From assembly GCA_024742285.1 (NCBI GenBank), contig JANSYR010000008.1:1-64000 (forward strand): 64,000 nt of DNA. Reading direction: 5' to 3'. Position 1 is the first letter of the stretch. Every line of letters starts with the position of its first letter. The DNA is from a bacterium (lineage in GTDB: Bacteria > Myxococcota_A > UBA9160 > UBA4427). Below are positions 2,325 to 8,572 of the stretch, piece by piece. The position numbers were made by a program, and so were the translations under genes. The notes beneath the pieces are model-generated. The model was not told the origin of the DNA and did not search any database. It saw nothing but the letters and a program-made list of their open reading frames with translations.

Positions 2325-2915
2325 ATGATGAGCCAGGACGATCTCCAGAACATCGACGCGAGCGTCTTCGTCCACCCGACCGCGCAGCTCTACGGACGCG
2401 TCGAGATCGGTGCCGAGTCGTCGGTCTGGCCGAACGTCGTCGTCCGCTCGGAGTCGCACCACGTGAAGGTCGGTCGCTACACGAATCTCCAGGATTTCGT
2501 GATGATCCACATCGGGTACGACTTCCCGACCGTGATCGGCGACTTCTGCTCGATCACCCATCACGCGACGATCCACGGCTGCACGATCGAAGACGACTGC
2601 CTGATCGGCATCAACGCCGTCGTGATGGACGGCGCCCGGATCGGCCGCGGCTCGATCGTCGCGGGCGGCGCCATGATCAAGGAAGGCGACGTCTTCCCCG
2701 CCGGCTCGATCATCGCCGGCGTCCCCGCCAAGCAGATCGCCGAACGCGACTCCGCCCGCCCCAACCGCCAGAACGCCTGGCAGTACCACTGGAACGCCCA
2801 GGCCTACCGCCGCGGCGACCACCGCGCCTGGGACAGCGACGAGTACAAGACCTGGATGCGCGAGCTCCTCGTCAAGATCGAGAACGACGAGGACCTCGAA
2901 GGGATCCGCCGCTGA
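2325..2915 (+). CDS. Gamma-class carbonic anhydrase homologue (left-handed beta-helix)
   Basis: A 196-residue hexapeptide-repeat protein of the gamma carbonic anhydrase/PaaY/YrdA family. The three metal-ligand histidines are visible as His62 (MIHI) and His79 plus His84 in the THHATIHGC segment, with the same 5-residue spacing as in YrdA. The repeats run to about residue 145; the last 40 residues are charged and probably helical. Start is the tandem ATG ATG at 2325, 18 bp after TraB/GumN, so the two may be cotranscribed. Whether it hydrates CO2 or only binds metal is not known. The stop codon forms the first bases of a 64-bp direct repeat. Confidence 0.85.
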   Translation: MMSQDDLQNIDASVFVHPTAQLYGRVEIGAESSVWPNVVVRSESHHVKVGRYTNLQDFVMIHIGYDFPTVIGDFCSITHHATIHGCTIEDDCLIGINAVVMDGARIGRGSIVAGGAMIKEGDVFPAGSIIAGVPAKQIAERDSARPNRQNAWQYHWNAQAYRRGDHRAWDSDEYKTWMRELLVKIENDEDLEGIRR

Positions 2916-3048
2916 ACGCGCCGCGGTCGCTCGTCCGCCGTTCGCGGCCCGTGGACGTCCGCAGTGGATGGCTCGCTTCGCCAATGAACGCGCCGCGGTC
3001 GCTCGTCCGCCGTTCGCGGCCCGTGGACGTCCGCAGTGGATGGCTCGC
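2913..3048. repeat. Two perfect 64-bp direct repeats, period 72
   Basis: Bases 2913-2976 are repeated exactly at 2985-3048 (each begins TGAACGCGCCGCGG), separated by 8 bp. The first copy starts on the TGA stop of the carbonic anhydrase gene. Only two units are present, with no CRISPR-like array, no flanking transposase and no open reading frame that I trust. Confidence 0.93.
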
Positions 3049-3063
3049 CCCATAGGCGGGGCG
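3046..3063 (+). terminator. Possible terminator hairpin after the carbonic anhydrase gene
   Basis: CGCCCC-ATAGGC-GGGGCG forms a 6-bp perfect stem with a 6-nt loop just after the direct repeats. There is no T-tract, so this is at best a weak or factor-dependent terminator. Confidence 0.3.
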
Positions 3064-3438: not shown

Positions 3439-4173
3439 CTACGACACGCCTCTGAACAGGAGATCCACCGCCTGGTGCATCGACTTCCGGAGGGCGTCAT
3501 CGGTGACCAGCCCGTTCGCCCACGGGATCCGCGCGCCGTTCGACACGTGGAAGAGGACGCGAGCGGTCTCGAGGACGTCGACCTCGCGGGCGAGGTGCTG
3601 CTTCTGGCGACCTCGCTGGAGGATCTCCATCAGGAGGCCGATCGTGCGGTCGTAGAGCTGGAGCACGCGCTTCGCGACGCGCGCCTCGGTCTTGGTCGTC
3701 GCGCGCAGGGCGATCGTCGTCAGGTCGCGGTCGGCGACGAGCAGCTCGTGCTGGACATCGAAGAACTCGCGCAGCCGCACGTCGGTCGGCCGGTCGCGAT
3801 CGTCGACGGCGCGGAAGCGCGTCCAGGCCTCCTCCTGCATCTCGGTGAGCTCGTCGATCAGGAGCTCTTCCTTCGACTGGACGTGGCGGTAGATCGAGCT
3901 CGCGCCCATCCCGGCGCGCTCGGCGATCGCCCGGAGCGTGGCGCCATCGAAGCCCCGTTCCCGGAACAGTTCGCGAGCCGCCTCGCGGATGCGCGCGCGG
4001 CTTCGCCGACCGCGGACGAGTCGGCCGTCATCGGCCCGCAGACGCGTGCGTTCACCGCTCGCGGACCGCGGCGGCGCGGCCTGACCGGTTCGCGGCGTGC
4101 GCGCGACCGTCGGCGCACCGCGATCCTGGGTTCCCGACACAGCCGGATGAGGAGACGAAAGACCCGTGCTCAT
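3439..4173 (-). CDS. TetR/AcrR family transcriptional regulator
   Basis: A 244-residue protein. Residues of about 58-105 form the TetR helix-turn-helix (AARELFRERGFDGATLRAIAERAGMGASSIYRHVQ, quoted only as landmarks: RERGFDGATL and GASSIYRHV). The first 55 residues are basic and Pro/Ser-rich, longer than usual, so an internal start is possible; I took the ATG at 4173. The C-terminal ligand domain gives no hint of the effector. It does not overlap its neighbours, and the GNAT gene on the same strand lies 164 bp upstream. Target genes are unknown. Confidence 0.85.
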   Translation of the reverse strand: MSTGLSSPHPAVSGTQDRGAPTVARTPRTGQAAPPRSASGERTRLRADDGRLVRGRRSRARIREAARELFRERGFDGATLRAIAERAGMGASSIYRHVQSKEELLIDELTEMQEEAWTRFRAVDDRDRPTDVRLREFFDVQHELLVADRDLTTIALRATTKTEARVAKRVLQLYDRTIGLLMEILQRGRQKQHLAREVDVLETARVLFHVSNGARIPWANGLVTDDALRKSMHQAVDLLFRGVS

Positions 4174-4337: not shown

Positions 4338-4991
4338 TCAGGCGGAATCTCCCGACGGGAAGCCGCGGCCGAGGCACCAGCACGGCACGCCGTGCACGAC
4401 GTCCTCGGCGCGCACCTCGAAGCCGTGGGCGCGGTAGAAGCGCACGCTCTCCGGCCGATCGCATTCGAGGCAGAGCGGGGCGGGCGAGGCCGCGACGAGG
4501 TCTTCGATCGATCCGAGCAGCGCCGCGCCGATCCCGCGCCCCTGCCACACCGGCTCGACCCCAAGGACCGAGAGGTACCAATGGGGCTCCCGGGGTCGGT
4601 ACTGAGCGAGCGAAGCCGTCACCGCCGACCATGCGCCCATCGCCCCCGCACCCTGTAGCCAGAAGCACTCGAATTGCCGCCGGATCGACGGCCGCGGCAG
4701 GGGGAAAGTACCGGGCGGCGCCACGATGAAGCCGCCGATGACGCCCGAGTCGTAGGTGATCACCCTCGAAACGACCGTGTCGGAATGGTCGAGCACCAGG
4801 GACCGCAGGCCGGCGGCGTTGGCCCGCACGCGCCGCGGCGGATCCGGTCCGTGGATCCGCGCGTTCATCGGATTGTCCCGGAAAGCACGCGCGAGCACGT
4901 CGACCAGCGACCGTCGCGCGGCGCGGTCGGGCGCCCCGATCGCCAGACGGCTCGGCTCCAGCGCAGGGGGCACATCGCCTTCGAGTATCAT
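4338..4991 (-). CDS. GNAT family N-acetyltransferase
   Basis: A 217-residue acetyltransferase-fold protein. The acetyl-CoA-binding motif A reads VEPVWQGRGIGAALL (about residues 140-155), preceded by a beta strand WYLSVLGV, and the motif-B region FYRAHGFEV is near the C terminus. The ATG at 4991 (MILEGD) is preferred over the upstream in-frame start because the extra 37 residues are Arg-rich and would overlap the divergent amidohydrolase. Only 8 bp separate its start from that gene's start, and a TAGCAT hexamer lies 8 nt upstream on this strand, suggesting a leaderless mRNA. Substrate unknown. Confidence 0.83.
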   Translation of the reverse strand: MILEGDVPPALEPSRLAIGAPDRAARRSLVDVLARAFRDNPMNARIHGPDPPRRVRANAAGLRSLVLDHSDTVVSRVITYDSGVIGGFIVAPPGTFPLPRPSIRRQFECFWLQGAGAMGAWSAVTASLAQYRPREPHWYLSVLGVEPVWQGRGIGAALLGSIEDLVAASPAPLCLECDRPESVRFYRAHGFEVRAEDVVHGVPCWCLGRGFPSGDSA

Positions 4992-5005
4992 GCGCCGCCA
5001 TGCTA
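4986..5005. promoter_or_regulatory. Mirror-image divergent -10 elements with leaderless starts
   Basis: The 20 bp TATCATGCGCCGCCATGCTA contain both start codons. On the plus strand TATCAT lies 8 nt before the ATG at 5000. On the minus strand TAGCAT lies 8 nt before the ATG at 4991. Each hexamer overlaps the opposite gene's first codons, and no ribosome site fits either start. Confidence 0.5.
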
Positions 5006-6763
5006 CTCGCTCGCTCGCACGCCTGCGTGTCCGTTCTCGTCCTCCTCTTCGTACTCGCGGCGCCCACCTCGGCCCTCGCCCGCGCGAACGCCCCGACGGC
5101 ACCGCCCTTCGAGGACGTGACGGTCTTCGTCGCGAAGCAGATCGTCACGATGGAGCCGGGACAGCCCGAGGCCACCGCGGTCGCCGTCGACGGCGAGACC
5201 GGTCGGATCATCGACGTCGGCAGCCTCGACACGATGGCGCCCTGGCTCGAGGACGTGCCCCACACAATCGATCGCCAGTTTCGGAAGCAGGTCCTCCTCC
5301 CGGGCTTCGTCGACCCCCACGTCCACCCCTTCCTGGCCGGAAAGCTCCTGACCGTAGACATCGCGGCGCCGGAAGCCTGGAACCTGCCGAGCGGCCGGGT
5401 CGAGTCGGTCACGAACCGCGAGGACTTCGTCGCGCGTCTGAAGACGCTCTCGGCCGCGTGGCCCCACGACGACGTGCCGCAGATCGTCTGGGGTTGGCAC
5501 CGGCTCTGGCACGGCGACTTCGGACGCGACGATCTCGACGCGATCGCACCGGACAAGCCGCTGCTCCTCTGGCACCGGTCGTATCACGAGATCGTCGCCA
5601 ACTCGAAGGCGATGGCGATGATCCCGATTCCCGACGAGGCCCTCGAGCGCTTCGGGAACCAGATCGACCTCGAGCGCGGGCACTTCGCCGAAATGGGCAT
5701 GGGCGTCGCGAACATGGCGATCGCGCCGATCACGGAGACCCCCGAGAAGATCGAGCAAGGGCTCGAGACGTTTCGCGTGCTCATGCAGCGTGGCGGCCTC
5801 ACGACGGCAGCGGACATGGTCGCGGGCAGCACGATCGGGATCGACGTCGAATGGGATGCGTCGAAGGCCCATCTCCAGGGCGAGGACGTCCCTTTCCGCA
5901 CGCTCTTCATCCACGCCCCCGCCGGCTGGCAGATCGCCGCGGGCGAAGCGGCGGTCACGAAGTTCCAGTCGATCCGCGCGGAAGCCAACGACCAGCTGCG
6001 CTGGCCGAAGGCGATCAAGTCGCTGGCCGATGGCGCCTTCATCTCGCAGCTCATGCGGATGGGACCGCCCGGCTACCTCGACGGGCACGAAGGCGAGTGG
6101 ATGATCCCGCCGGAGCTCCAGTACGGCGTCGTCGAGCCGTGGTGGAAGCAGGGCTTCGACGTCTACTACCACGTGAACGGAGACGAGGGCCTCGACGTCG
6201 TCCTCGATGTCTTCGAACGGCTGAAGGCCGAGCATCCGCGCAGCGACTTCCGCTTCAGCCTCGAACACTTCGGCATGTCCCGGGACGATCAGGTCGAGCG
6301 CTTCGCCCGACTCGGCGGCGGTTCGGTCTCGATCAACGGCTACTATGCCCACTACTTCGCCGACAAGTACGCGCGCCACGGACTCGGCTACGCGCGCGCG
6401 TCGCAGATGACCCGCCTGGGCTCCCTGTCCCGGGCAGGAATTCCCTTCACGATGCATTCGGACTGCCCGATGGGGCCGCTCGAACCCCTGCTCGCCGTCA
6501 CGACCGCGGTCACGCGACGGACCCAGGAAGGTCGGATCATGGCCCCGGAGCAGCGTGTGACCGTCGACGAGGCGCTTCGCGCCGTCACGATCGACGCCGC
6601 CTGGAACCTCCGCCTCGACGACGAGGTGGGCAGCATCGCGCCGGGCAAGAAGGCCGATTTCGTGGTCCTCGAGAAGAATCCCTACGACGTCCGACCGGCC
6701 CGGATCAAGGACATCGGCGTCTGGGGCACGGTCTACGAAGGGCGCGTCTTCGAGGCGCCGTGA
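5000..6763 (+). CDS. Exported amidohydrolase, YtcJ-like (amidohydrolase_3)
   Basis: A 587-residue protein with a cleavable signal peptide (hydrophobic core VLVLLFVLAAP, cleavage after SALA near residue 28), so it should act in the periplasm. The metal-binding HxH is in DPHVHPF near residue 111, and the late HSDCPMGPLEP segment is typical of YtcJ-like amidohydrolases, which hydrolyse amide or imine bonds in diverse small molecules. The ATG at 5000 is preceded by TATCAT only 8 nt upstream and no ribosome site. It is divergent from the GNAT gene. The substrate cannot be deduced. Confidence 0.86.
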   Translation: MLLARSHACVSVLVLLFVLAAPTSALARANAPTAPPFEDVTVFVAKQIVTMEPGQPEATAVAVDGETGRIIDVGSLDTMAPWLEDVPHTIDRQFRKQVLLPGFVDPHVHPFLAGKLLTVDIAAPEAWNLPSGRVESVTNREDFVARLKTLSAAWPHDDVPQIVWGWHRLWHGDFGRDDLDAIAPDKPLLLWHRSYHEIVANSKAMAMIPIPDEALERFGNQIDLERGHFAEMGMGVANMAIAPITETPEKIEQGLETFRVLMQRGGLTTAADMVAGSTIGIDVEWDASKAHLQGEDVPFRTLFIHAPAGWQIAAGEAAVTKFQSIRAEANDQLRWPKAIKSLADGAFISQLMRMGPPGYLDGHEGEWMIPPELQYGVVEPWWKQGFDVYYHVNGDEGLDVVLDVFERLKAEHPRSDFRFSLEHFGMSRDDQVERFARLGGGSVSINGYYAHYFADKYARHGLGYARASQMTRLGSLSRAGIPFTMHSDCPMGPLEPLLAVTTAVTRRTQEGRIMAPEQRVTVDEALRAVTIDAAWNLRLDDEVGSIAPGKKADFVVLEKNPYDVRPARIKDIGVWGTVYEGRVFEAP

Positions 6764-6859
6764 GGCCGCCGGGCCGCGGCTTGAGTTCCCGGCCCATTCC
6801 GCCGATTGAGAACAGGGGATCTCCCCCGACCGTCCCATCCTCGAACCCGGAGCGCACGC

Positions 6860-8572
6860 ATGTCCACGGAGCAGGGAGATCGCATCGTCTGCCGCTTGCG
6901 CTTCCAGCACGAGGGACGCGACCGGGTCTTCACCGTGAGCGATCGACCGGTCGTGATCGGGCGCGCGCCCGAGTGCGATCTGCTGCTCGCCCACGACAGC
7001 ATCTCGCGCCAGCACGCGCGCCTCGCCTTCGAAGACGATGGCTGGCTCCTCACCGACCTCGAGAGCAAGAACGGCTCGCGGGTGAACACCTTCCACGTGA
7101 AGGAGCAGGTCCTCCGGAACGGGGACCGCCTCGACCTCGGATCGATCCGCATGTTCGTCGAGATCGGCCCCGAGTCCGCCGCCTCCCGCGCCCGCGTGAT
7201 CTTCGACGAAGACAAGGCACCGGCGATGCACACCGAGGTGCTCGATCTCCAGGGCCTCGATCACCTGCTCCAGGCCGCAGGCGAGCGAAAACTGGCCCCG
7301 CAGCCGTCGCCCTTCACCGACAAGGACGTGCTCGCCGGCGTCGACGACGATCTGCTCCGCACGCCGATTCCCGAAGGCGGCACGAGCCCGGAGCTGCTCC
7401 GCCTCGTTTCCGAGTCCGCCGAGAGCCTGCTCTCGTGTACGACGCTGCCCGAGACCCTGGACCGGATCCTCTCCCTCGTCTTCGCGAACATCCCCGTCGA
7501 GCGCGGCGTGATCTGTCTGTACGACGAGGCCTCCGGCGGGATCGAGCCGATGGCCATGCGCAACCGCGAGGGAGTCCCGGACGCGCCGATCGAGATCAGC
7601 ACGAACATCACCGGCGTCGCGATCGAGGAGAAGCAGGCGGTCCTGATCAAGGACACCGCCATGGACGAACGCTTCGGCGGCGCCGAGAGCGTGATCATGA
7701 TGGACATCCACTCGGCGATGTGCGCGCCGCTCCTCCGGGACGACAAGGTCAGCGGCTACATCTACGTCGACCGTCAGTCGAGCGCCCACCCCTTCGACAT
7801 GCCCCAGCTCCAGGCGCTCTCGATCCTCGCGCTCCTCGCCGCGATCGCGGTGGAGCAGGCGGGACTGCGGGACGACGTACGTCGGGAGCAGGAACGCCGC
7901 GTGCGCCTCGCCCGCTACAGCTCGCCGGCGGTCGTCGAACGGATCATCGCCGACCCCGAGGCCGGCATGGGCAGCATGGTCGCCGACGAAGGCGACGTCT
8001 CCATCCTCTTCGCCGATCTCACGGGCTTCACGACGATGGCGGAACGGCTCCCGCCCTCGGAGGTCGTGCTGATCCTCAACCAGGTCTTCGAGCGCCTCAC
8101 GAGCGCCGTCTTCGCCCTCGACGGCACCCTCGACAAGTTCCGCGGCGACGGCATGATGGCCTTCTTCGGCGCACCGCTCCCGATGGCGGACCACGCGGAG
8201 CGCGCCGTCGAAGCGGCGCTGCAGATGCAGGAGGCCCTCGCGCGCTTGAACGACGCGCGCGAAGGCGTCCGTCCGATCCAGATGCGCATCGGCGTGAACT
8301 CGGGCTCGGTCGTCGTCGGCGACATCGGCTCCCCCGCCCGCAAGGACTACACGGTCATCGGCGACGTGGTGAACATCGCCAGCCGCCTCGAGTCCTCCGT
8401 CGCCCGGCCCGGCCAGGTGGTGATCGGCGAGTCGACCTGGGAAGCCGTGCGCCACGCATACACGGCGGAAGCCCTCGACGAGGTCCTGCTCAAGGGCAAG
8501 CGCAAGAGCGTGCGGCCCTATCTCGTGACGGGAAGGGTCGGCGCCGACACCGGCCCGACGCGGGCGCTCTGA
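6860..8572 (+). CDS. FHA-GAF-class III adenylate cyclase fusion
   Basis: A 570-residue cytoplasmic signalling protein. Domain order: FHA (about 20-100, with GRAPECDLLL and SRQHARL, binding phosphothreonine), GAF (about 180-330, small-ligand sensor) and a class III cyclase domain (about 375-555). The metal Asp lies in LFADLTGFT; DKFRGDGMMAFFG supplies the second Asp and the adenine-specifying Lys, and GDVVNIASRLES supplies the transition-state Asn and Arg. All catalytic residues look intact, so cyclic AMP production is likely. The ATG at 6860 has a GGAG site; the longer frame upstream does not. The cyclase probably couples phospho-signalling and ligand binding to cAMP. Confidence 0.92.
   Translation: MSTEQGDRIVCRLRFQHEGRDRVFTVSDRPVVIGRAPECDLLLAHDSISRQHARLAFEDDGWLLTDLESKNGSRVNTFHVKEQVLRNGDRLDLGSIRMFVEIGPESAASRARVIFDEDKAPAMHTEVLDLQGLDHLLQAAGERKLAPQPSPFTDKDVLAGVDDDLLRTPIPEGGTSPELLRLVSESAESLLSCTTLPETLDRILSLVFANIPVERGVICLYDEASGGIEPMAMRNREGVPDAPIEISTNITGVAIEEKQAVLIKDTAMDERFGGAESVIMMDIHSAMCAPLLRDDKVSGYIYVDRQSSAHPFDMPQLQALSILALLAAIAVEQAGLRDDVRREQERRVRLARYSSPAVVERIIADPEAGMGSMVADEGDVSILFADLTGFTTMAERLPPSEVVLILNQVFERLTSAVFALDGTLDKFRGDGMMAFFGAPLPMADHAERAVEAALQMQEALARLNDAREGVRPIQMRIGVNSGSVVVGDIGSPARKDYTVIGDVVNIASRLESSVARPGQVVIGESTWEAVRHAYTAEALDEVLLKGKRKSVRPYLVTGRVGADTGPTRAL

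Follow-up and report, generated by a model that had tools for sequence, protein, structure and literature searches.

How two divergent genes can be expressed when only 8 bp separate their start codons was the question raised by positions 4986–5005 of a 64,000-nt window, by which we mean the whole stretch of DNA that was analysed. Direct reading of the window gave the order TTCGAG-TATCAT-GCGCCGCC-ATGCTA-CTCGC along the plus strand, with the minus-strand start codon at 4991–4989, the plus-strand start codon at 5000–5002 and positions 4992–4999 between them. TATCAT (4986–4991) ended 8 nt upstream of the plus-strand ATG, and TAGCAT, which runs from 5005 to 5000 on the minus strand, ended 8 nt upstream of the minus-strand ATG. 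Each TANNNT hexamer constituted codons 1–2 of the opposite gene and so included its start codon. No GGAG/GAGG-like Shine-Dalgarno site was found 5′ of either ATG in the window sequence. The arrangement described by the first-pass annotation, with divergent start codons 8 bp apart, a TANNNT hexamer 8 nt before each start inside the first codons of the other gene, and a ribosome site at neither, was thus borne out. The locus contains the following features.

4338..4991, minus strand: GNAT acetyltransferase of 217 aa (Pfam Acetyltransf_1/7/10), predicted leaderless
4986..4991, plus strand: TATCAT, candidate −10 element for amidohydrolase transcription and, read on the minus strand, GNAT codons 1–2 (ATG ATA)
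4992..4999, no strand: 8-bp spacer between the start codons, inside both predicted transcription bubbles
5000..5005, minus strand: TAGCAT, candidate −10 element for GNAT transcription and, read on the plus strand, amidohydrolase codons 1–2 (ATG CTA)
5000..6763, plus strand: Amidohydro_3 family amidohydrolase of 587 aa (Pfam PF07969, E 4.6e-63), predicted leaderless
6860..8572, plus strand: neighbouring FHA-GAF-adenylate/guanylate cyclase gene

The GNAT protein begins with M-I-L (ATG ATA CTC) and the amidohydrolase with M-L-L (ATG CTA CTC), the latter having a signal-peptide-like N terminus. In the window genome, the ATG at 5000 was the first possible start in the amidohydrolase frame after the preceding stop. 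In two relatives (G003 and G004), no ATG, GTG or TTG was found from the amidohydrolase ATG to the end of the signal-peptide-like stretch, so that a start farther downstream would cost the protein its export signal. On the GNAT side, the corresponding ATG in G001, G002 and G006 was preceded within a few codons by an in-frame stop. Comparison with homologues, which had been named beforehand as a test on which the arrangement could fall, moved neither start codon.

To place the two starts in the context of the genome, we predicted genes with a simple, self-trained finder in 1.6 Mb of the genome that carries the window, obtaining 1335 genes and 223 divergent pairs. The number of genes with TANNNT was 34, 14, 12, 11 and 7 at offsets of 6, 7, 8, 9 and 10 nt upstream of the start, respectively, against a background of ~0.9 per offset farther upstream (Poisson p 2e-10 for the enrichment at offset 8), and scrambled motifs produced no peak before the starts of the same gene set. 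Shine-Dalgarno sites were present in just 4 of 79 TANNNT genes versus 717 of 1333 genes overall (Fisher p about 1e-21), and about 6% of the genes look leaderless by these signs. Only the GNAT/amidohydrolase pair, among the 223 divergent pairs, had a TANNNT 5–10 nt upstream of each start; with five control motifs, no pair in the same set matched on both sides. The genome-wide TANNNT signal, the avoidance of Shine-Dalgarno sites and the conservation in relatives described below make expression of both genes from leaderless mRNAs, or from mRNAs with a 1–2-nt leader, well supported at the level of sequence, in agreement with the earlier proposal that both are leaderless.

A G two bases 5′ of the hexamer, resembling an extended −10 element, was present in 69% of the 78 genes with TANNNT 6–10 nt before the start, and no clear −35 signal was found in this set (78 genes, 1.6 Mb). 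Counting against a promoter at the block itself, no −35 element was seen on either side, the upstream G was absent from both hexamers in the window genome, and the distance from hexamer to ATG was 8 nt compared with a genome mode of 6.

On balance, we consider it likely that positions 4986–5005 form a bidirectional promoter whose two halves face each other and whose mRNAs are leaderless or nearly so. Each TANNNT would serve as a −10 element that points RNA polymerase at the opposite hexamer and over it, and transcription would begin in the spacer or at the first base of either start codon. The usual 6-nt discriminator would set the starts near 4998 (plus) and 4993 (minus), and an 8-nt discriminator would move them to the A of the start codons (5000 and 4991), in either case yielding two divergent, non-overlapping mRNAs that are leaderless or have a 1–2-nt leader. 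Both open complexes would melt nearly identical 15–17-bp regions, and because these regions nearly coincide, one polymerase would exclude the other while bound. Initiation would then be exclusive from moment to moment, with both genes probably transcribed at low, independent basal rates and not toggled. Since either gene's −10 element is made of the first two codons of its neighbour, coding sequence and promoter would be fixed together.

Conservation was assessed in nine genomes of the genus (G000–G008), five of which (G000–G004) contain the GNAT/amidohydrolase pair. Both TATCAT and ATGCTA were kept in 5/5 of the pair-carrying genomes. The start-to-start gap was 8 bp in G000, G003 and G004 and 9 bp in G001 and G002, and the sequence of this spacer was variable. 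Of the conservation that the first-pass annotation had suggested checking, that of the hexamers held and that of the exact 8-bp spacing held in three of the five genomes. In G005–G008, the GNAT gene was present and the amidohydrolase gene absent, the next plus-strand gene being that for the FHA-GAF-cyclase. Outside the genus, a family-wide search with GNAT recovered no copy of the block.

These four genomes bear on a narrower explanation, in which only the GNAT promoter (TAGCAT on the minus strand) is real and TATCAT is merely the Met-Ile start of GNAT; the amidohydrolase ATG would be a by-product of the CAT in TAGCAT, and its expression would be weak or driven from another promoter. TANNAT was found 5′ of GNAT in 9/9 genus genomes, including the four without the amidohydrolase, with variants TAGTAT in G006 and TACCAT in G007, and G005–G007 kept TATCAT even though no plus-strand gene exists at that spot. 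It follows that the amidohydrolase does not fully explain why TATCAT is conserved, and the GNAT promoter is better supported than the amidohydrolase promoter by these comparisons. The narrower explanation, however, leaves the amidohydrolase with neither a Shine-Dalgarno site nor an earlier start in frame, and it does not account for the choice of second codon. ATA made up 52 of 452,560 codons (0.26% of Ile codons) and CTA 0.5% of Leu codons, and these rare codons occupied position 2 of GNAT and of the amidohydrolase, respectively, in conserved fashion. An NTA second codon occurred in just 2 of the 1335 predicted genes, GNAT and the plus-strand gene of the pair at C4:106465/106474; the amidohydrolase fell outside this count because the gene finder had put its start at 5027. 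That sole other NTA gene also forms the −10 hexamer of its head-to-head neighbour, and two-sided blocks occurred at an unrelated NTP-transferase pair described below. We accordingly regard a lone GNAT promoter as unlikely, and a conserved, functional bidirectional promoter as the probable reading of the block.

The near-palindrome TAtCATG-N6-CATGcTA could alternatively be bound as an operator by some dimeric transcription factor. Six of seven arm positions were symmetric in the window, and a TetR-family gene lies nearby at 3439–4170. Across the nine genomes, however, the arm spacing varied (8 or 9 bp) and the CATG arms were lost in G003, G006, G007 and G008, while TANNNT and the start codons were mostly kept. 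The dyad was present once in the genome, so that no regulon was visible. With neither conserved arms nor fixed spacing, we rejected the operator as highly improbable.

The C4 pair (L084:6465-6474), in the same genome as the window, is divergent, its two starts lying exactly 8 bp apart, and is kept in G003, G004 and G005. By reading of the sequence, it encodes a ThiI-like protein and a small membrane protein. Its minus-strand gene has the form GGTATCAT-N8-ATG, in which TATCAT corresponds to the ATGATA start of the plus-strand gene and lies 8 nt before the opposite start; the pair is one-sided, with ATTCAT and no TANNNT on the other side.

Beyond the genus, the bare mirrored pattern was as frequent in a scan of the phylum as chance predicts and is thus no evidence by itself; the loci fetched from that scan contained no further divergent gene pair. 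The strict form TANCAT-N8-ATGNTA had a single match in the genome of the window. Over 79 genomes of the order it was about as frequent as expected by chance, and genome-wide and order-wide counts of the bare pattern otherwise resembled those of a reversed-pattern control. A two-sided block was nevertheless found between another pair of divergent genes, in another family of the order.

L097:1501-1520, L098, L113 and L114 (in G072, G032, G073 and G074): two-sided block between NTP-transferase and CDP-alcohol phosphatidyltransferase genes

The gap was 8 bp in G072 and G032 and 9 bp in G073 and G074, and both frames were complete or open over long stretches in all four. The block was also kept, with a gap of 9 bp, in G071 and G049; the partner frame is ended by a stop at 22 aa in G071 and reaches the contig end at 77 aa in G049, and these two pairs are unconfirmed. 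At gaps of 6 and 7 bp, no convincing divergent pair was found; one gap-6 case (L121), apparently a frame antisense to the gene of a secretion-type ATPase, was set aside. The preference for an 8–9-bp gap is no more than suggestive, with independent two-sided loci numbering n = 2, a small number. Somewhat short of an even chance, in our judgement, is the broader proposal that such blocks represent a recurrent class in this deltaproteobacterial order, namely codon-embedded bidirectional promoters of head-to-head leaderless genes with an 8–9-bp gap, in which the start codons, second codons and promoters of both genes would co-evolve as 20–21-bp units and initiation would be coupled through competition for one bubble.

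The overlap of the two promoters had originally been taken to give mutual exclusion and, with it, a compact switch between GNAT and the amidohydrolase. The steric part, exclusion from moment to moment, follows from the geometry of the predicted overlapping bubbles; the switch part found no support. A regulated switch would use the mutually exclusive promoters to choose between GNAT and amidohydrolase states, and it draws on the fact that overlapping open complexes cannot coexist and on the observation in E. coli that one direction can be repressed when its opposite is activated (PMC12825309). Such repression was seen in E. coli only when the other direction was strongly activated, and 5/5 tested E. 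coli bidirectional promoters had too little basal activity for transcription one way to influence transcription the other way (PMC12825309). At the present locus, neither a regulator providing feedback nor any functional antagonism of the two products was found, and GNAT persists without the amidohydrolase in G005–G008. Because basal activity in E. coli is too low for competition, a default switch at this block is by analogy unlikely; regulation may occur under activation of one direction. Overall, we give the regulated switch a very low probability and retain the reading of a bidirectional promoter with independent basal outputs.

This reading places the block close to three known systems. 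In prokaryotic bidirectional promoters, described by Warman, Grainger, Wade and co-workers, divergent starts fall within about 25 bp in pseudo-symmetric DNA, usually at a distance of 18 bp and frequently at 10 or 23 bp, polymerase binds in either orientation and not in both at once, and starts may fall inside the −10 element of the other direction (PMC12825309, PMC10268837). The block resembles them in its geometry of mutual exclusion, with hexamers 8 bp apart and overlapping predicted bubbles. Unlike the 18-, 10- and 23-bp classes, which are described as sharing one −10 element, it has two separate, non-overlapping hexamers facing each other across 8–9 bp, a predicted start distance of about 5–9 bp, and hexamers that are the first two codons of the neighbouring gene. 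The second system is that of TA-led leaderless genes, for which Zheng et al. (2011, PMC3160421) list delta-proteobacteria among the groups (8/33 genomes). As in these genes and in M. tuberculosis (PMC3898074), where TANNNT lies about 10 bp before a start lacking a Shine-Dalgarno site, both starts of the block have a TA-like hexamer 8 nt upstream and no Shine-Dalgarno site; the known cases, however, treat single genes, and the available portions of the two reports describe no reciprocal head-to-head pair. In Deinococcus-Thermus, a −10 motif directly 5′ of the ORF similarly drives leaderless mRNA with no −35 element needed, but the words "bidirectional" and "divergent" do not occur in the text of that study (PMC12340547). 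The probable face-to-face leaderless promoter would be a novel form, bidirectional promoters and TA-led leaderless genes both being already known.

If the starts are as predicted, the block would be among the most compact means of driving two divergent genes, with no intergenic promoter. It would allow one to ask, in a natural setting, whether expression depends on polymerases competing for overlapping bubbles, and TANCAT-N8/9-ATGNTA with rare second codons would supply a search rule for such pairs that needs no transcript data.

Two observations concern the surroundings of the block. The interval 6763–6860, before the FHA-GAF-cyclase gene, contains TTGAG...TTGAGA, and similar TTGA/TAGA sequences occurred 5′ of the homologous cyclase gene in G005, G006 and G008, which suggests a separate promoter for the cyclase gene. 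At 2915–3060, reading frames with a near-identical repeated peptide stretch (NAPRSLVRRSRPVDVRSGW...) indicate a short direct DNA repeat just 3′ of the gene at 2325–2915.
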